In this document: piece by piece, positions 5,191 to 16,606 of the stretch
Layout: every line of letters begins with the position of its first letter
How positions within the stretch are numbered: position 1 is the first letter of the stretch
NCBI GenBank assembly: GCA_026627345.1
Contig: JAPNUP010000060.1
Span: 1-41,204, forward strand
DNA length: 41,204 bases
Reading direction: 5' to 3'
Origin: Bacillota bacterium
GTDB taxonomy: Bacteria > Bacillota > Bacilli > Alicyclobacillales > SLC66
The notes under the pieces: model-generated
Database searches by the model: none
What the model was told of the DNA's origin: nothing
What the model saw: the letters and a program-made list of their open reading frames with translations, nothing else
Program-made: the position numbers and the translations under genes

Positions 5191-7374
5191 ATGTCTACAC
5201 AAGTGCTTCATGAAAGGACCGATCCGATCCACCGCAAGCAGCGTCAAAAGACAGGGCGAGCTGGCCACCTCTTAACGCTGTTCACCATCGGCGCGCTGAC
5301 GGCAACGGCCATTGGCTTTGTGACGTGGCAGAAGGTGAGTGAGGAACTCGCCACACCACGGGTCAATCTCGCTGCCCTTGCCGTAACCAGTGAACCTTCG
5401 GACGTTTTCGACCGCTACGGTCACTTGCTGTTCGTGATTCCACCGAAAGGTCCAATCGATGTGCCGCTCTCAGCGACCCCGCGCCTGCTTCAACGCGCGC
5501 TGATCGCCACTGAGGACGCCGGATTCTATCATCAGGACGGTTTTAGCCTAGAATCCTATGTGCGAGCCGCGTGGCACGATGTCGTGCATCACGACGAAGG
5601 GCAAGGCGGTAGCACACTAACGCAACAACTAGCCAAAATCGTCTATCTCAGTGATAACAAAACGTTGAATCGCAAATGGCAACAGTTGATCCTCGGTATC
5701 CAGATCGCCAAACGTTACAACCATAATCAGATCCTCGACTTCTATCTCAACCGCGTATACTTTGGCGGTGGCGCCACGGGCATAGTGCAAGCCGCTTACA
5801 CTTACTTCGGGTTGCGGCCCAATCAACTGCATCGCCTGACCCTTGTGCAGTCCGCGCTGCTCGCAGGGATGCCGCAAGCGCCTTCGCTCTACGACCCGCT
5901 CGTCCATCCAGGGCTCGCACGCAAGCGGCGCAACGAAGTGCTGCAGCGTATGGAAATGGCGGGCTACTTGACGCCACAAGCGATGCGCCGCGCACAGGCT
6001 GCACCACTCGAATTGCATCCCGGACGCGGTACTGGGTTTTCAGTCCCTACAGTAGATGAGTCTTACCGCGACTACCTGCTCACGGAACTCGCCTCGCTGC
6101 ATCTCAGTGGTCTACTTGTGCACGGTGGTATACGCATTGACACAGATCTCGATCCACGCCTGCAGCAAGCAACGTATGATGCTGTCAACAACACACACCT
6201 TTACCCTACACCGCTGTCGACTGCTCACGAGGAGTTGCAAGGCGCCGCTGTCATGATCGATCCGCACACAGGGGGCATCATGGCACTCGTCGGGGGCAAA
6301 GCCAACACGTACACGGTAGGTGGATTCGACTACGCGACGCAGACAGAGCGCTCTCCCGGCTCTGCCATGAAACCACTCGTCGTGTACGGCCCCGCGATTC
6401 AAACGGGGCGCTGGAACGCCAGTTCCGCGGTGGAAGATGGACTACACAATCAGCTGACCTTTTCTGGCTACACGGTTAGTGACTGGGAGCCGCACTGGAC
6501 GGACAACGGCATGGTGAGCATCCGTTGGGCGCTTGCGGAATCGTGGAACGCTCCAGCCGTCTGGTTGTTGCACGAGATCGGGGTGAACCGCGGGATCGCC
6601 TTCGCTGATCGCGCAGGTCTGAGTTTGAACCACCCCGCCGATCGCAACCTGACCATCGCACTAGGTAATGTCATCCCAGGTATCTCACCCCTCACACTCG
6701 CCGATGCATACGCGTCTTTTGACAATAACGGCGTACGTATGCCGGCGCATGCAGTCATGCGCATCGTCAGCGATCGTGGGAAAGTGATGTATCAAGCGCG
6801 TCAACATCCCGTTACCGTGATGTCCAAGAGCACAGCCCATCAGATGGTCGCCTTGCTTGAGAATAATGTAACAAACGGTATTGTTGCCGGCGCCTCAGCG
6901 CCTGGCCACGAAGTCGCAGGCAAAACAGGGTCGGTCGCCTACAACAATTGGTCGCGTACGGACAGCGATCTCTGGGTAGCGGCGTTCACGCCTAACGTCG
7001 TCGGCGCGATCTGGGAAGGATATCCACACACGACGCTGGCGGACAGCCTGCCACAGTGGTCCAGCAAGTACCCGCCGATGATGTTTTCTGCGATCATTCG
7101 GCAAGGTTGGCCGTCTCATGGCGGGCGGTTCCCTGTACGGCCTGCGGTAGGCCCTGACTACCCAACCAACTTTCCAGCTCAACATACGAAGCCCGCAAGG
7201 ATTCGCACGCGTTCACACGCCGTAACGATTCACATCTCCGTCCCTCACCATCCGTCTCAGCAGCCTCAGCCTCCCAAGGCGCAGCCCCCACATCCACCCG
7301 GGCCTTCGCACCCGCCCGGTCGAGCCAAAGGCCCGGGAGGTCCACCGCCAGGACCAGGCAGAGGGCATCATTGA
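5191..7374 (+). CDS. Class A penicillin-binding protein (transglycosylase/transpeptidase)
   Basis: Bifunctional peptidoglycan synthase, 727 residues. One membrane anchor (about 27-47), a GT51 glycosyltransferase domain (about 75-250) with GGSTLTQQLAK (139-149) and ILDFYLNRVYFGGG, and a penicillin-binding transpeptidase domain with SAMK (391-394), SWN (451-453) and KTG (578-580). The transpeptidase triad is intact. The GT51 motifs are not standard: motif 1 reads EDAGFYHQDGF, with Gln where His of EDxxFxxHxG is expected (E108 is kept), and motif 3 reads RKWQQ, with Gln165 where RKxxE has a glutamate. The last about 45 residues are a Pro/Gly/His-rich tail. ATG 5191 has AGGGGG upstream. Likely envelope work together with the downstream cassette, though a hairpin at 7395 separates them. 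Confidence 0.93.
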   Translation: MSTQVLHERTDPIHRKQRQKTGRAGHLLTLFTIGALTATAIGFVTWQKVSEELATPRVNLAALAVTSEPSDVFDRYGHLLFVIPPKGPIDVPLSATPRLLQRALIATEDAGFYHQDGFSLESYVRAAWHDVVHHDEGQGGSTLTQQLAKIVYLSDNKTLNRKWQQLILGIQIAKRYNHNQILDFYLNRVYFGGGATGIVQAAYTYFGLRPNQLHRLTLVQSALLAGMPQAPSLYDPLVHPGLARKRRNEVLQRMEMAGYLTPQAMRRAQAAPLELHPGRGTGFSVPTVDESYRDYLLTELASLHLSGLLVHGGIRIDTDLDPRLQQATYDAVNNTHLYPTPLSTAHEELQGAAVMIDPHTGGIMALVGGKANTYTVGGFDYATQTERSPGSAMKPLVVYGPAIQTGRWNASSAVEDGLHNQLTFSGYTVSDWEPHWTDNGMVSIRWALAESWNAPAVWLLHEIGVNRGIAFADRAGLSLNHPADRNLTIALGNVIPGISPLTLADAYASFDNNGVRMPAHAVMRIVSDRGKVMYQARQHPVTVMSKSTAHQMVALLENNVTNGIVAGASAPGHEVAGKTGSVAYNNWSRTDSDLWVAAFTPNVVGAIWEGYPHTTLADSLPQWSSKYPPMMFSAIIRQGWPSHGGRFPVRPAVGPDYPTNFPAQHTKPARIRTRSHAVTIHISVPHHPSQQPQPPKAQPPHPPGPSHPPGRAKGPGGPPPGPGRGHH

Positions 7375-7394: not shown

Positions 7395-7425
7395 GACGTA
7401 CGCGACAACCCTTGTCGCGTACGTC
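7395..7425 (+). terminator. 14-bp perfect hairpin after the PBP gene
   Basis: GACGTACGCGACAA (7395-7408) pairs exactly with TTGTCGCGTACGTC (7412-7425) around a 3-base loop, 20 bases after the stop codon. The T-tract is poor, so termination may be partial. Confidence 0.55.
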
Positions 7426-7607: not shown

Positions 7608-8831
7608 ATGAGTTCTATTCCCATAGCGCGCACTAAGATGTTAGCCCCACTGCGTTGGTGCGTCTATTTGTTAAGTGCTTACCCGATCATCAACTATCTT
7701 TTGCACATCCACCCGCTCACACCACTTGGCGGCATCTGGGACAAGGCAATCCTGCTCGCTTTGGCCTACTATGCTTACACCACACGACAGTGGAAGCCGC
7801 TGGACGCTACACAGAAGATGATCGTGTTCGTATTGGTGCTAGGCCTCGGACTCCTGATGATGAATGTCGGTGATTTGACCGTTACTTTTGCAGGGTATAG
7901 AGATGACTACACCTATATGATTTTCCCGATCTTGCTACCGTATGTGATCGAGAAAGAAGACATGGTTCCGCTGATTAAGTGGGTAGTACTGATCGGCTTT
8001 CTCGTCGCCATGCACGGTGTATACGAATACATCGTCAAGATCCCAGACCCGGCTTCTTGGGCCGATCCGCTACAGCACGAGCGTACGCGCATTTATTCGA
8101 TTTTCGGCAGCCCGAACATCATGGGTTCGTACATGGCTTTTATCACACCGCTGGCAGCCGGTGTCACGCTATACGAGAAGAACCGAGGTCAGCGCATTTT
8201 CTATGGGGTAGCGACTGCGATGGCGCTTTTCGCATTGCTGTTCACATTTACCCGCGGCGCTTGGGTCGGCTTTTTCGTTGCCGCGTTCGTCTTCACGCTA
8301 CTGGTCGATCGCCGCTGGACGATCGGCTTGCTCGTGGCCTCCGTGATCGGCGTCTTGTTCGTTCACCCGATTCACGCACGGGTATTCGAAATTCTTTCGC
8401 CCGTGTACATTTCTAAAGAAGTGGCCAACGGGCGTATCGCGCGTTGGATTAACGCCTACGACGAGATGCGGACAAGCCCACTGTTCGGCGTTGGTATGGG
8501 ATACTACGGCGGCGCCATTGCTTCCCAGTACTTCGGAATCACCTATGTCGACAATTATTATGCCAAAACGCTCGCGGAGACAGGGCTGGTGGGCCTTGGT
8601 AGCCTGCTGACACTGTTTGCCGTTTACTGGCGCGGCGTATGGCGCGTATGGAAAGAAGAGACCGATCCCCAAACGCGCTATCTGATCGCGGGCGTCCTCA
8701 GTAGCCTCACCGCTTTGCTGGTGCACAATGCGATGGAAAATGTCTTTGAAGAAGCACCGATGTACGTACTTTTCTGGCTGGTCGGATCAGTGGTCCTCAT
8801 TTACGGTCGCAAGGAGGCCGAGCATGCGTAA
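7608..8831 (+). CDS. O-antigen ligase/polymerase-like polytopic membrane protein (Wzy_C family)
   Basis: A 407-residue protein with about ten hydrophobic segments. FTFTRGAWVGFF and the stretch RIARW..SPLFGVGMGYYGG..DNYYAKTLAETGLVGL match the O-antigen ligase/Wzy_C pattern, with the arginine-rich loop between membrane spans. Family members join or polymerise lipid-linked glycans on the outer face of the membrane; in Gram-positive bacteria without LPS they act in capsule, secondary wall polymer or glycoprotein assembly. I chose ATG 7608, with AGGGG 7 bases upstream; ATG 7566 would add 14 residues and lacks such a site. It overlaps the next gene by 8 bases, so the two are translationally coupled. 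The substrate cannot be read from sequence. Confidence 0.8.
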   Translation: MSSIPIARTKMLAPLRWCVYLLSAYPIINYLLHIHPLTPLGGIWDKAILLALAYYAYTTRQWKPLDATQKMIVFVLVLGLGLLMMNVGDLTVTFAGYRDDYTYMIFPILLPYVIEKEDMVPLIKWVVLIGFLVAMHGVYEYIVKIPDPASWADPLQHERTRIYSIFGSPNIMGSYMAFITPLAAGVTLYEKNRGQRIFYGVATAMALFALLFTFTRGAWVGFFVAAFVFTLLVDRRWTIGLLVASVIGVLFVHPIHARVFEILSPVYISKEVANGRIARWINAYDEMRTSPLFGVGMGYYGGAIASQYFGITYVDNYYAKTLAETGLVGLGSLLTLFAVYWRGVWRVWKEETDPQTRYLIAGVLSSLTALLVHNAMENVFEEAPMYVLFWLVGSVVLIYGRKEAEHA

Positions 8832-10497
8832 TCCCGTACTCAGCCCATGGGCGCTCACCCCTATTCTCATGATCTACGCGGTCTGGGCCGTGCTCTTTCA
8901 CCAATTAGTGCTTACAGCCTGGACGCTTCAGTATTCCTATCTCGGCGTGATCGGGATTCTCGTCGCAGCGGCTATCGTTTTTGTGTCATTTCCGCGTTTG
9001 GAGCGCAAACCGCTCCTTTACTTCACTGCCTATGCCATGCTAGTCGGGATTGGGTTATCCAACGTCTTGACGCAGGTCTCCCCTTGGAACTGGATCGATC
9101 TCGTCGTCTTCCTCGTCCTGGCACTGCCCCTTGGCCGCTACGTGGTTCGTCTGCACATTCTTCAAGTCCTCTTGGTTGTGGCGTCTGTCATCGCACTCGA
9201 ACTTTGGGTGCCATTTGCCGATATGAGTGTCCTGTCTGCCTTCTCTCTTCGCTATGAAGCGAGCTTGGCGCCACCTTCACCGCTGAACAGCAACGTACCG
9301 GACGCCCTCACAGCGACCACTGCAGAGAACACCAACCCGACGATCACTACGCTGGCAGCTTTACCTGTCCAATCAGCGGCCAAGAAAACGCTCCTTCAGG
9401 CGATCAGTGCCTTTACGCCTGGACAGAGTACAGCGGCACGGGCAGATCTGCTCGATGAGTCCTTGGCGATCGCGGCGCTTACGCGTGTCCCCTCAGGTGG
9501 TTACCACCTGCAGGCAGCTACTGAGGCGCAATTACAAGCCGTGCCTTTTACATCGCTGACGCTATCTGATTTCCCGTTTCACACCGCACACATCATCAGT
9601 ACCCCAGACAAACAGCTACGCGTGGTAGAACCGATCACTGATTCTCCCACCACACTGCTTTCGATGCTGCTTAATCCAGACACGCTACCGCTGACCGCCG
9701 CTCGCCTGACGGTAGAAAGCGCGCGAACGACCGCCAACAGTTGGAGCGCACACGTGGCAAAAGCTACACCGCAAATTGACGGCTTATCAGTCGAAAACGG
9801 CGTCTTACACGGTACCTTTCACGGACAAGCCGTTCACATCCAAACTAGAGGGGTGACACTCCTTGGCGTCGCATCGTTTGCCCCGTCGCTCGGCCGAGCG
9901 GCAGAAGCCATGGTTGAAGGCAACAACGTCCTGCAGGTGGTCACCTTACCACCAGATCGTGTACGAATCCTGTCGACCTTGGTCGGCTCCTACATCCATC
10001 CGCTAACATCCGATATCCAGTTTGGCGATGTCCTTGGCAATCACACAGATGCGCTACTGATTAACACAGTCCCGGCTCAGATCGTGGTCTTGACGCCGCA
10101 AAATAAGTGGAAAACCCTATGGTCAAGCGGACAAGCTTCGTTTCGCTTTGAGGCGACCACTCATCAGACGAGCAACCGTGATTTGCTGATCGCCAATGCG
10201 CCGGCTCTCTACAGCACCAACCCAACGCGCTATCTCGGCGGGTATGTGTACAGCAATCACCAACTCGAACGGGTGTTTCGCGTATATCGAGCGAATCTGA
10301 TCAACGTGCACGCTGTGAGCCATGCCATGAGCGGATGGCCGACCATTATGGCCACAGTCTTTGACCAACCGGCGATTATGGTGCTAGAACCGAGTTCGAT
10401 CCCGTGGCTGACACTCGTCGATCTTGGCTTTGCTATCCTGATCATCACTGGACTCGTTCGCCGTATCAGAAGGAGGACCCGTCATGAAGCGGTCTAA
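8824..10497 (+). CDS. Membrane-anchored exported protein of unknown family
   Basis: I do not recognise the family. The 557-residue protein has four or five N-terminal membrane segments (to about residue 135), a large soluble part of about 390 residues rich in Thr, Ala and Ser, one C-terminal membrane segment (about 530-550) and a basic tail RRIRRRTR. In the soluble part, FGDVLGNHTDALLIN followed by QIVVLTPQNKWKTLW resembles FG-GAP/beta-propeller blades, which is only a suggestion. ATG 8824 has AAGGAGG at a good distance and overlaps the ligase-like gene; the frame is also open upstream to 8728, but that part reads within the upstream gene. The 3' end overlaps the lipoprotein gene by 14 bases. 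A partner of the ligase-like protein is likely from this coupling. Confidence 0.75.
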   Translation: MRNPVLSPWALTPILMIYAVWAVLFHQLVLTAWTLQYSYLGVIGILVAAAIVFVSFPRLERKPLLYFTAYAMLVGIGLSNVLTQVSPWNWIDLVVFLVLALPLGRYVVRLHILQVLLVVASVIALELWVPFADMSVLSAFSLRYEASLAPPSPLNSNVPDALTATTAENTNPTITTLAALPVQSAAKKTLLQAISAFTPGQSTAARADLLDESLAIAALTRVPSGGYHLQAATEAQLQAVPFTSLTLSDFPFHTAHIISTPDKQLRVVEPITDSPTTLLSMLLNPDTLPLTAARLTVESARTTANSWSAHVAKATPQIDGLSVENGVLHGTFHGQAVHIQTRGVTLLGVASFAPSLGRAAEAMVEGNNVLQVVTLPPDRVRILSTLVGSYIHPLTSDIQFGDVLGNHTDALLINTVPAQIVVLTPQNKWKTLWSSGQASFRFEATTHQTSNRDLLIANAPALYSTNPTRYLGGYVYSNHQLERVFRVYRANLINVHAVSHAMSGWPTIMATVFDQPAIMVLEPSSIPWLTLVDLGFAILIITGLVRRIRRRTRHEAV

Positions 10498-11224
10498 ACT
10501 ATTCGCGTGGACGGGCACAGCGTTGGTCAGTCTCTTGCTAACAGGATGCAACCTGGTCTCTGACCCGGCGCTCATGAAACAGACCCTGATCACGCGCCAA
10601 CTCGACCCACAAGGCCTGTCTCGCATCGATGCGTCACTGGCTATTATGCGCAGTACGCATACGTACTTACTCAAAGCGACGCAAACCTATACGGAAGGCT
10701 CCAATGTGAAAACGGCTGATTACTTCGGCACCATCTCACTGCCTTCGACCATTATGTTGAGTGAAACGATCGATGGCCTCAATGCCGTGATCTATCAGTC
10801 GGGCAAACATGCGTATGTCAATATGAATGGCAAGTGGCAATCGGCGCCACCCGTGACCAACGTCCTGCCTTGGGACGCCTTGGCGGCACTGTTAACACTG
10901 CATCCTCCGCGACAAGTATACGCTTTGCCTACTCAACCGGTACTTTCCTGGGAGTGCGATGTCTATCAGTTTCAAGAAACGATTCCGCAGAGCTGGCGCG
11001 GCGTCGTTCCCGCTTCAGAATGGCCGCTGATGCCGCGAGACGCCCTATATACCTTGTGGATCGACAAAGGTGATCATCACCTCAGGCAGATGGAGATCCA
11101 GTCCACCTCCGGCGTGCCGTCTCTTGGCACTGTCACTATGAACGCGGTGCAGACTTACGCGAACCTGAACCTGCCAGTCACGATTACCATGCCTGCAGGT
11201 CTAAAGAAACATTTGGAAAACTAA
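10484..11224 (+). CDS. Lipoprotein of unknown function, third gene of the membrane cassette
   Basis: A 246-residue protein with a short lipoprotein signal peptide: MKRSKLF, a hydrophobic stretch and the lipobox LLTGC (Cys22 would be lipidated). The mature part alternates strands (TYTEGSNVKTADYFGTISLP, then HAYVNMNGKWQSAPP) in the manner of LppX/LolA-like or DUF6612-type half-barrel lipoproteins; this is a resemblance, not an assignment. It starts inside the end of the preceding gene, with AGGAGG at 10470-10475, and the gene ends at a strong hairpin. Co-translation with the polytopic ligase-like protein and the exported membrane protein suggests an outer-face complex. Confidence 0.75.
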   Translation: MKRSKLFAWTGTALVSLLLTGCNLVSDPALMKQTLITRQLDPQGLSRIDASLAIMRSTHTYLLKATQTYTEGSNVKTADYFGTISLPSTIMLSETIDGLNAVIYQSGKHAYVNMNGKWQSAPPVTNVLPWDALAALLTLHPPRQVYALPTQPVLSWECDVYQFQETIPQSWRGVVPASEWPLMPRDALYTLWIDKGDHHLRQMEIQSTSGVPSLGTVTMNAVQTYANLNLPVTITMPAGLKKHLEN

Positions 11225-11230
11225 CCTGTA

Positions 11231-11275
11231 ACAGAACAGCCCGTATCCGTTGCTGCCGGATACGGGCTGTTCTGT
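11231..11275. terminator. Bidirectional terminator, 19-bp perfect stem
   Basis: 11231-11249 and 11257-11275 are exact inverted copies with a 7-base loop. They sit between the ends of the lipoprotein gene (+) and panD (-), where a two-way terminator is expected. Confidence 0.82.
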
Positions 11276-11286
11276 ACATCCTCTTC

Positions 11287-11664
11287 TTATAGATCTTTCA
11301 GCACATGTGACTCCACTTTAGTGATCTGATTTTTCTCGTCGACGTGGACGATATGGGCTGTGATCTGCTCATACTCTTCATCCGTCACATCGGCCAAAGA
11401 TAGCACAATCACCAGATCTGTGGGCTGAAACAGCCGCGCCGGCGGTCCGTTCAGGCACACTGTGCCACTGCCCGCAGGTGCGGGGATCGCATACGTCCGC
11501 CACAGTGTAGCGTTGGCTACGTTGGTCACCTGAACCATCTCATACGGCTTCAGGTTTGCAGCGTCCATCAACGCACGGTCGATCGTAATGCTGCCTACAT
11601 AGTCCAATCTGGCTTCCGTAACGGTAGCGCGATGTATTTTACCTTTACAAATGGTACGTAACAA
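11287..11664 (-). CDS. panD: Aspartate 1-decarboxylase proenzyme
   Basis: Pyruvoyl-dependent enzyme that makes beta-alanine from aspartate for pantothenate and CoA. The 125-residue length and N-terminus MLRTICKGKIHRATVTEA are typical. The self-cleavage site is visible as YVGSITID (Gly24-Ser25), which gives the pyruvoyl group on the alpha chain; TYAIPAPAGSGTVCLNG continues the family pattern. panB and panC are not adjacent, so it is a solitary gene here. A bidirectional terminator follows at 11231-11275. Confidence 0.95.
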   Translation of the reverse strand: MLRTICKGKIHRATVTEARLDYVGSITIDRALMDAANLKPYEMVQVTNVANATLWRTYAIPAPAGSGTVCLNGPPARLFQPTDLVIVLSLADVTDEEYEQITAHIVHVDEKNQITKVESHVLKDL

Positions 11665-14689: not shown

Positions 14690-16606
14690 TCAGTGCTGCG
14701 CTTTGAGCCAACTCGCGAGACTCGCTGCGTTCGGTGACCCTACGCCAGTCGCCTGATTGTAACCTGGAACCGATGCATAGTACCAGTTGTCACCACTCGT
14801 AATCGGGATCAGTGGCGCGCCAGACCCGTAGTCGCCCGCTTTAGACAGCGTGTACAGTGCAGGATTCAGCATCCCCACTCGTCCACCGAGATCCTCATCG
14901 AGCAGCGCTGTGATGCCATTCATCTGCGGCGCAGTAAGGCTTGTGCCACCGACGTTTTTCATCCAACCGCCGTCCGGCGTGGAGTACACGAGATACCCCG
15001 TATAAGGGTCTGCATTTAACGAGATATCCGGGGTGTTGCGGCCCGCAAAGCCAGATGGCAAGCTAAAATCGAGAGACGGTGGATTCTGTGTGTTGTCAAT
15101 CAGCCTTTGATTGGGCGCAGTCGTCTGTATCCCTGAGACGCCTTGTTGATAGAAAGGCTTGGGCCACACGGAACTGACGCCACCGCCACCGCCAGTCGGA
15201 AATACGTTTTGGGTGTAGAGAGCGTACTGACCATCATGGGCCTCGATGTAATTCGTCAGGTAGTCCCATCCCCATGCGCGCGTTACAGGGACATTCACGG
15301 TACCATGCAGGAGTTTAATGGTGCCTGCATGCGTCGTTCCGCCCGTCGCGGTCACATAGGGATCAGACGATGGCGCGTCGACGGATACCACCTTAGAGAT
15401 AAATGGATAAGGAACTGCAGCGTTGACATCGTACGCACCTGAATCACCTGCAGCTGCAAACACCGTGATGCCTTGCGCTGCCGCTTCCATGAATGCCTGG
15501 TTCATCGCCTGCAGTTCGTTCAGCTGTCCGCCTGCCAGATAGAAGAGTTCCGGCGACCCCCAACTGACAGACAGCGAACTCACCACATTGTCGGACGCTG
15601 CCTGATAGAACACATCGTTAAAGCCCTCATCAGTGTTAGCCGCATCATAGACGACAATGTTAGCGTCTGGCGCCAGCCCACCGGATTGTTCTACATCAAG
15701 TGCGGTCTCAGCTGAGCCGACAGACGCTCCGATCTGCGCGCCGCCATCGACAAAGACTTGGGAGACCCGGTTGGGTTTCACCTTCAGATGAATCGCATTC
15801 CAGTAGTGATAGGCATCCGCGATATGAAAATTCGCAAATGTCGCGATGCCGATCGTCTCGCCCGTTCCTTTGATCCCTTGGTAGTACAGTGGATTGACAC
15901 CGTACATATTGGCGACATCGCCTACTGTATACTCGCCTGGAATACCAGTTGCAGTGCCGTGCTTCGGTAATGTCACACCAGTTTTACTGTCATCCGCAGG
16001 TTCAGCTGCTCCATCTTTCGGCGCCATCAGCATCTGTGGCGCAGAAGCTGCCACATTATCTAGCCCGATCGTGGTGAGAACATACTTTTGCAGGTTACTA
16101 GGAAACTTCACCGCTTGCGTAATGCCGTAGAAGTCCTGCCCACTGCTGGAGAAGTCTTCGATAGCCACCGAGAAAAGTTTCTCGAACGCGCTAGCCGGGC
16201 CGATCGCCTTGACCAGCAGTCCATCTGGATACACATACGCCTGAATATGATGCGCAGTCAGATAGGAGACAAAGGCAGATCCTACTGAAGTCGGTGGCGC
16301 ATAAAGGTTACGAAATACGGGGACGCTCAAAAACTTGTGAAAGTCGACACTAGTCGGCGTCTCCGTTTGCTGTATATAAGAGGCGAGGCCGGTCGGATTT
16401 TGAATCTTGAGGACAATGGATAGTGTCATGATCTGATTAGCATCTGCCGGCCCTAAATCAGTAATGGGCTGGGTCAATCCGAGAAGCGGTCGAACCAGCG
16501 GCTCGGCCTGCGCAGCGCGTGTACTGGCGAGCGCGGAGGATGAAGAGGCCAGAATCAGGCATCCGGAAACAATGATAGGCAACAACCAAGAACGACTGGA
16601 TTTCAA
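14690..16606 (-). CDS. Secreted kumamolisin-like serine-carboxyl protease (S53 sedolisin)
   Basis: A 638-residue preproenzyme: signal peptide (1 to about 28), activation prodomain (about 40-200, VDFHKFLSVPVFRNLYAP type) and an S53 catalytic domain. The catalytic residues are visible: E300 and D304 in SAETALDVE, the oxyanion aspartate D388 in AAAGDSG, and S556 in GGTSLTAP. Family members are pepstatin-insensitive endopeptidases that work at low pH outside the cell. Odd: kumamolisin binds calcium through aspartates in its DITSG and GWDPCTG motifs, but here the matching sites read PITSG (P601) and GYNQATG (N617). The start is TTG 16606 with GGGGAG upstream. Transcription is from the promoter at 16699-16727. 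Confidence 0.92.
   Translation of the reverse strand: MKSSRSWLLPIIVSGCLILASSSSALASTRAAQAEPLVRPLLGLTQPITDLGPADANQIMTLSIVLKIQNPTGLASYIQQTETPTSVDFHKFLSVPVFRNLYAPPTSVGSAFVSYLTAHHIQAYVYPDGLLVKAIGPASAFEKLFSVAIEDFSSSGQDFYGITQAVKFPSNLQKYVLTTIGLDNVAASAPQMLMAPKDGAAEPADDSKTGVTLPKHGTATGIPGEYTVGDVANMYGVNPLYYQGIKGTGETIGIATFANFHIADAYHYWNAIHLKVKPNRVSQVFVDGGAQIGASVGSAETALDVEQSGGLAPDANIVVYDAANTDEGFNDVFYQAASDNVVSSLSVSWGSPELFYLAGGQLNELQAMNQAFMEAAAQGITVFAAAGDSGAYDVNAAVPYPFISKVVSVDAPSSDPYVTATGGTTHAGTIKLLHGTVNVPVTRAWGWDYLTNYIEAHDGQYALYTQNVFPTGGGGGVSSVWPKPFYQQGVSGIQTTAPNQRLIDNTQNPPSLDFSLPSGFAGRNTPDISLNADPYTGYLVYSTPDGGWMKNVGGTSLTAPQMNGITALLDEDLGGRVGMLNPALYTLSKAGDYGSGAPLIPITSGDNWYYASVPGYNQATGVGSPNAASLASWLKAQH

Follow-up and report, generated by a model that had tools for sequence, protein, structure and literature searches.

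A Wzy_C-family membrane enzyme, a membrane-anchored propeller protein and an LprG-like lipoprotein form a conserved candidate trio for wall-glycopolymer assembly in Alicyclobacillales and other Bacillota

How the repeats of secondary cell wall polymers (SCWPs) are polymerised and attached has been called an open question, for which WpaA and WpaB of Bacillus anthracis are the only candidates named (PMC6030368). WpaA and WpaB belong to the Wzy/WaaL clan, in which O-antigen ligases carry a histidine and polymerases and SEDS proteins carry an Asp or Glu that is thought to activate the acceptor (PMC10920833). In mycobacteria, LprG binds triacylated glycolipids and lipoarabinomannan and moves triacylglycerol between membranes, and LppX is needed for the placement of phthiocerol dimycocerosate (PDIM; PMC4709180). 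Here we analysed a 41,204-nucleotide stretch of DNA (contig JAPNUP010000060.1, hereafter the window; contig C82 of a 2.76-Mb genome) from a Bacillota bacterium of the order Alicyclobacillales, in which three overlapping genes, referred to as lig, mid and lip, encode a polytopic Wzy_C-family enzyme, a membrane-spanning protein with a predicted propeller and a lipoprotein with an LprG-like modelled fold. We found no prior description of this trio in the open-licence literature, and we consider it about an even call that it forms a wall-glycopolymer assembly complex made of a polymerase-type enzyme, a propeller partner and an LprG-like carrier.

The first gene encodes a polytopic membrane enzyme that matches PF04932 (Wzy_C) well above the Pfam cut-off (51.1 bits against 31.7, E 1.7e-13), in line with the Wzy/O-antigen-ligase-like product proposed in the initial annotation, and a profile match to the solved WaaL structure 7TPG was also obtained (E 1.3e-4). 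Like WaaL (GT121, PDB 7TPG/7TPJ), Lig has both arginines whose counterparts bind the diphosphate of undecaprenyl diphosphate in WaaL, and these two residues (R216 and R276) are invariant across the Lig sequences of the trios. Unlike WaaL, Lig has an aspartate (Asp315) in place of the catalytic histidine (His313 in 7TPG), is tied to Mid and Lip and has Gram-positive relatives that lack lipopolysaccharide. This aspartate is invariant in the sequences of the order and the trios (52/52) and in clostridial sequences (35/35), and other Wzy_C proteins of Bacilli have either His (19 sequences) or Asp (9 sequences) at the same position. Wzy-type inverting polymerases and SEDS proteins (GT-C1, PMC10920833) are similar to Lig in that they combine an Arg with an Asp or Glu aligned with the WaaL histidine, so that an invariant Asp in place of this histidine argues for polymerase-type chemistry. 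WpaA and WpaB, which were proposed for the same step, belong to another family (PF13425), to which Lig showed no Pfam match at E values up to 1. Altogether, Lig very probably acts on a glycan and, judging from its residues and its relatives, it is fairly probably a polymerase rather than the ligase-like enzyme that was first suggested.

The gene context of Lig relatives points in the same direction. Using lig as the query, we gathered a wider set of related loci, and a maximum-likelihood tree placed the Lig proteins of the trios in one clade (SH-aLRT 97%, that is, Shimodaira-Hasegawa-like approximate likelihood ratio test support) that includes secondary copies without mid and lip. This clade stands beside clostridial ligases, with ligases of Bacilli further out, and is nested among ligases encoded in SCWP clusters. 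One such cluster (L220) contains TagO, LCP, a MurJ-like flippase, Lig, GT4, CsaB, a UDP-sugar dehydrogenase and TagA, all confirmed by their domains, and a second one (L110) contains GT4, Lig, CsaB and TagA. The nearest relatives of Lig are thus found in TagO/TagA/CsaB/LCP clusters like the SCWP clusters of Paenibacillus, and this setting makes a polymerase likelier than a ligase. As for Wzy-type inverting polymerases, a setting in a polymer cluster with flippase and glycosyltransferase genes was seen for the relatives in L219, L220, L221 and L110, but not at the window locus or at the rplS locus described below. Two complete trios from outside the order are also flanked by glycan genes: csaB lies directly upstream of the G059 trio and overlaps the start of lig (L073:4102-5478), and the G489 trio is surrounded by genes for a MurJ-family flippase, two GT4 enzymes and a dehydrogenase-like open reading frame (ORF). 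The GT4 genes beside the L219 and L120 trios, like those of G489, belong to the same family as those of CsaB clusters. The earlier remark that no glycosyltransferase or flippase gene is adjacent therefore holds for the window, where no glycan gene was found beside the trio, but not for some of its relatives.

The rest of the pathway was searched for in the genome of the window, which encodes one TagA protein and three LCP proteins. The tagA gene and one LCP gene are adjacent on a 3.6-kb contig (C181; L229, 34-1778), whose size implies that the rest of this cluster is unassembled, and their presence indicates that a linkage-unit pathway with attachment by LCP enzymes exists in this organism. 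This fits the initial view that the glycan must be made elsewhere. No PF04464 teichoic-acid polymerase was found in this genome and no PF04932 protein beyond those of its two trios, other Wzy families not having been searched for, which makes Lig the only Wzy_C candidate for chain building. With its TagA, LCP and SLH-domain proteins (three SLH matches), this genome shares these parts of CsaB-dependent SCWP and S-layer anchoring systems; 54 SLH matches were counted in the G059 genome.

We then looked at how tightly the three genes stay together, over 52 loci in total (41 from its own and related genomes, nine from wider Bacillota, plus L120 and L219). The lip gene adjoins mid in all 52 loci and lig is adjacent in 47 of them; in the own and related genomes, the corresponding counts are 41/41 (with one fusion) and 36/41. 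One of these, the Lip of L073, was matched only at E 6e-4 but has a lipobox. Dozens of relatives, from several families of spore-forming, Gram-positive Bacillota, show this order with overlapping genes, so that the arrangement is not due to chance. Gene fusions provide the best evidence for a complex, as they link all three proteins. True fusions of Mid and Lip into a single protein that has lost the lipobox cysteine were found in L104 and L120, and four other loci (L180, L187, L188 and L219) have mid and lip in one ORF with an internal lipobox, at which the product could still be cleaved. On the other side, a second copy of lig is fused to the membrane bundle of mid, with the propeller deleted, in A. 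tolerans and A. mengziensis, where it lies beside a GT2 gene; the canonical lig of A. mengziensis is also decayed (L055). Other second copies of lig (L105, L106 and L115) have the same GT2 neighbour, without mid or lip. Given these fusions and the conserved order, the three proteins probably work together and a physical complex, as initially proposed, is likely.

Mid and Lip were first considered to be of unrecognised family, and neither gave a Pfam or NCBIfam match, whether as single proteins or in scans of each of 33-34 homologues. Structure comparison nevertheless assigned a fold to both. The AlphaFold2 model of Mid, built with 34 homologues, has a pLDDT (predicted local distance difference test) of 88.3 and its ectodomain is, in this model, a beta-propeller. 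The best matches among solved structures are integrin-alpha beta-propellers (VIA: Z 15.4 over 290 residues, root-mean-square deviation 4.5, 9% identity); a plain Foldseek search with the whole model returned mixed propellers with low TM-scores, and the VIA alignment was more consistent. The FG-GAP family of Pfam was above cut-off in distant Mid homologues (L073, L219 and L120) and was not matched by the Mid of the window, for which searches with PDB sequence profiles returned nothing beyond chance or short-repeat matches. The predicted ectodomain of Mid resembles FG-GAP/integrin-alpha propellers in fold, but it has five transmembrane helices on its N-terminal side and one on its C-terminal side. 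The model, hydropathy and the lipobox all agree with the initially annotated topologies, namely N-terminal spans, an exported domain and a C-terminal anchor for Mid and a lipoprotein for Lip.

For Lip, the model matched LprG (3mh8, Z 16.9), LppX (2byo, Z 16.9) and LprF (4qa8, Z 16.8), with root-mean-square deviations of 2.5-2.7 across 166-174 residues, and the next structural matches were LolA and RseB (Z around 11). None of 33 Lip members matched PF07161 (LppX/LprAFG) at E values up to 1, so that the likeness is one of fold and does not imply membership of this family or its function. PDB profile matches of Lip to "Cake" entries turned out to be repetitions of a single 18-residue stretch and were not retained; the other PDB sequence profiles gave chance or short-repeat matches only. 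From its modelled fold, we propose that Lip is a lipid carrier with a cavity. It would differ from the mycobacterial LppX, LprG and LprF proteins, with which it shares fold and lipobox, not only by the lack of a detectable sequence match but also by its partners, which are a glycosyltransferase and a propeller protein instead of the MmpL7 or Rv1410 transporters. Conversely, we found no propeller or LprG-like extracytoplasmic partners of Wzy-type polymerases in the open-licence literature, whereas the trio ties Lig to both.

In the mechanism that we propose, Lig would accept, on the external surface of the membrane, glycan units linked to undecaprenyl diphosphate and would most likely polymerise them, with R216 and R276 holding the diphosphate and Asp315 activating the acceptor. 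Mid would dock on Lig via its membrane bundle, placing the propeller over Lig, where it may bind or steer either the lengthening chain or the acceptor. Lip, with its lipid anchor close to Mid, would retain the lipid moiety of the donor, of the product or of the released carrier, and LCP enzymes would then receive the finished polymer and attach it to the wall. A wall polymer of SCWP-like type is somewhat favoured as the product. A broader and rather unlikely extension, which we give as tentative, is that the trio is a glycopolymer machine of spore-forming Bacillota that couples polymerisation to extracellular lipid handling, with a Wzy-type polymerase, a propeller scaffold and an LprG-like carrier of the product lipid or of spent undecaprenyl.

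Several observations weigh against a polymerase-type wall-polymer complex. An Asp at the catalytic position is no proof of polymerisation, and no glycan genes lie beside the trios of families f21 and f63. CsaB had no match in the window genome (G000) and was above cut-off only in G059 among the 61 genomes; the polymer would thus not be a classical CsaB-pyruvylated SCWP, a point on which the window genome differs from CsaB-type SCWP systems. Moreover, lig is lost or decayed in 5/52 loci in which mid and lip are intact, with scattered lig remnants upstream of mid in L053, L055 and L058 and no trace in L050 and L066. Mid and lip thus occur apart from lig in a minority of relatives, where they may work with other enzymes or have additional functions. 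Finally, ligases of the same clade in Clostridia and the second copies of Alicyclobacillus occur without mid and lip, which are therefore not essential to the chemistry.

These lig-less loci are what would be expected if Mid and Lip were an independent two-protein module, for example for lipid trafficking or for envelope-stress sensing, with Lig as a frequent neighbour only; the envelope-stress sensor RseB is indeed among the more distant matches of Lip (Z 10.9). We nevertheless consider this improbable, since lig is adjacent in the other 47 loci, across several Bacillota families and with differing neighbours otherwise, and since lig is fused to the mid bundle in two species, in one of which the original lig is decayed. 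A role of Lig as a transporter of bicarbonate, like IctB, or of another small molecule would account for TIGR00947 being its best NCBIfam match, but the score of 99.4 bits falls far short of the equivalog cut-off of 366.4, the diphosphate arginines are conserved and the relatives have glycan gene neighbours, which makes such a role very improbable.

Another possibility is that Lig is a true ligase that transfers a finished glycan from undecaprenyl diphosphate to a membrane lipid or lipoprotein, Lip then carrying the lipoglycan outward as LprG does with lipoarabinomannan. The name of its family, O-antigen ligase, and the LprG/LppX fold of Lip, members of which bind triacylated glycolipids and lipoarabinomannan (PMC4709180), would fit with this, and the absence of mid and lip beside the relatives in SCWP clusters may mark a different acceptor. 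Such a ligase is unlikely, however, as the typical histidine of O-antigen ligases is replaced by Asp in 87/87 sequences of the order, the trios and Clostridia, and as the closest relatives are encoded in wall-polymer clusters together with LCP transferases, enzymes that themselves perform ligation. O-oligosaccharyltransferases share the histidine of O-antigen ligases at the catalytic position, and its replacement speaks in the same way against Lig being such an enzyme for exported or S-layer proteins, with Mid and Lip presenting the protein acceptor. SLH-domain proteins, found in 18/18 genomes of the family, could provide acceptors, and Lig weakly matches PEP_O_lig_1 and TfpM. These scores are far under the equivalog cut-offs (34.7 against 188 and 26.1 against 600, respectively) and no exosortase, pilin or target gene lies beside the conserved loci, so that we regard this role as quite improbable.

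The genome of the window contains a second complete trio on contig C162, whose Mid and Lip are each 39% identical to the window copies. It lies just upstream of genes identified by sequence reading as those for ribosomal protein L19 (rplS), an RbgA-type GTPase, RNase HII and YraN, which is the position of the trio in nearly all relatives of the order. Mid homologues were found in 58/61 relatives. Among the relatives with species names are Sulfoacidibacillus thermotolerans, Ferroacidibacillus organovorans and many Alicyclobacillus. Since the Lig of the window takes a more basal position in the tree than the remaining ligases of its family (SH-aLRT 99% and 96%), the window trio is, on this phylogeny, an old paralogue. 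A second trio likewise set beside panD is present in the sister genome G001; an apparent frameshift that splits its lig into two ORFs (L040, around 10390) is a run of N, hence an assembly gap and not a pseudogene. Between paralogues, Mid (37-43% identity) and Lip (36-42%) diverge faster than Lig (at least 50%), as is common for outer-face proteins. Further away, mid was detected in nine of 397 additional genomes sampled across Bacillota, all nine with the lig-mid-lip order and with varying other neighbours, and two more loci (L120 and L219) have all three genes.

At the window locus (Table 1), lig and mid overlap by 8 bases (ATGCGTAA) and mid and lip by 14 bases, as initially annotated, and AAGGAGG-type ribosome sites precede mid (8811-8817) and lip (10470-10476). 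The upstream neighbour is a PBP1A-like gene (5191-7374), and the downstream one is panD (11287-11664), which is convergent. The PBP1A-like protein has a long Pro/His/Gly-rich tail and scored 440 bits with the NCBIfam model PBP_1a, below its cut-off of 509. The perfect inverted repeats on both sides of the trio fit with a separate transcription unit, the first one being a possible end of the upstream unit and the second one a possible two-way terminator; promoter-like sites were not more frequent than in shuffled sequence. PADLOC gave no match, leaving a defence role without support. Elsewhere in the window, a gene on the minus strand (14690-16606) encodes a large exported protein that resembles S53 (kumamolisin/sedolisin-type) peptidases by eye only.

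Table 1. Coordinates of the trio, its residues and domains, the flanking repeats and the fusion genes of relatives (window positions unless a locus is given).
Feature	Position	Strand	Basis or remark
lig	7608-8831	+	ORF, 407 aa
Lig R216	8253-8255	+	aligns with WaaL R191
Lig R276	8433-8435	+	aligns with WaaL R265
Lig D315	8550-8552	+	aligns with the WaaL catalytic His
mid	8824-10497	+	ORF, 557 aa
Mid N-terminal bundle, five transmembrane helices, aa 8-138	8845-9237	+	model secondary structure; hydropathy
Mid exported beta-propeller (predicted), aa 140-527, about 390 residues	9241-10404	+	structural match; FG-GAP in distant homologues
Mid C-terminal transmembrane helix, aa 528-556, Arg-rich tail	10405-10491	+	model; hydropathy
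lip	10484-11224	+	ORF, 246 aa
Lip lipobox LTGC, codon of lipidated Cys22	10547-10549	+	lipobox read from sequence
Lip LppX/LprG-type fold (predicted), aa 40-246		+	AlphaFold2 model, pLDDT 85.6
Inverted repeat, perfect, 14 bp	7395-7425		between PBP1A-like gene and lig
Inverted repeat, perfect, 19 bp	11231-11275		between lip and convergent panD
lig-mid-bundle fusion, A. tolerans	L100:7821-9689		second lig copy, beside GT2 gene
lig-mid-bundle fusion, A. mengziensis	L103:7911-9716		second lig copy, beside GT2 gene

The trio thus offers a conserved candidate enzyme, together with two apparently undescribed partners, for the question of how SCWPs are polymerised, which becomes testable in non-pathogenic Alicyclobacillus. 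If the proposed role is true, the step at which SCWP-like polymers are polymerised, so far missing, would be provided by the trio, and the link between an LprG-type lipid-carrier fold and a Wzy-type enzyme would join two fields of envelope biology that are usually separate.

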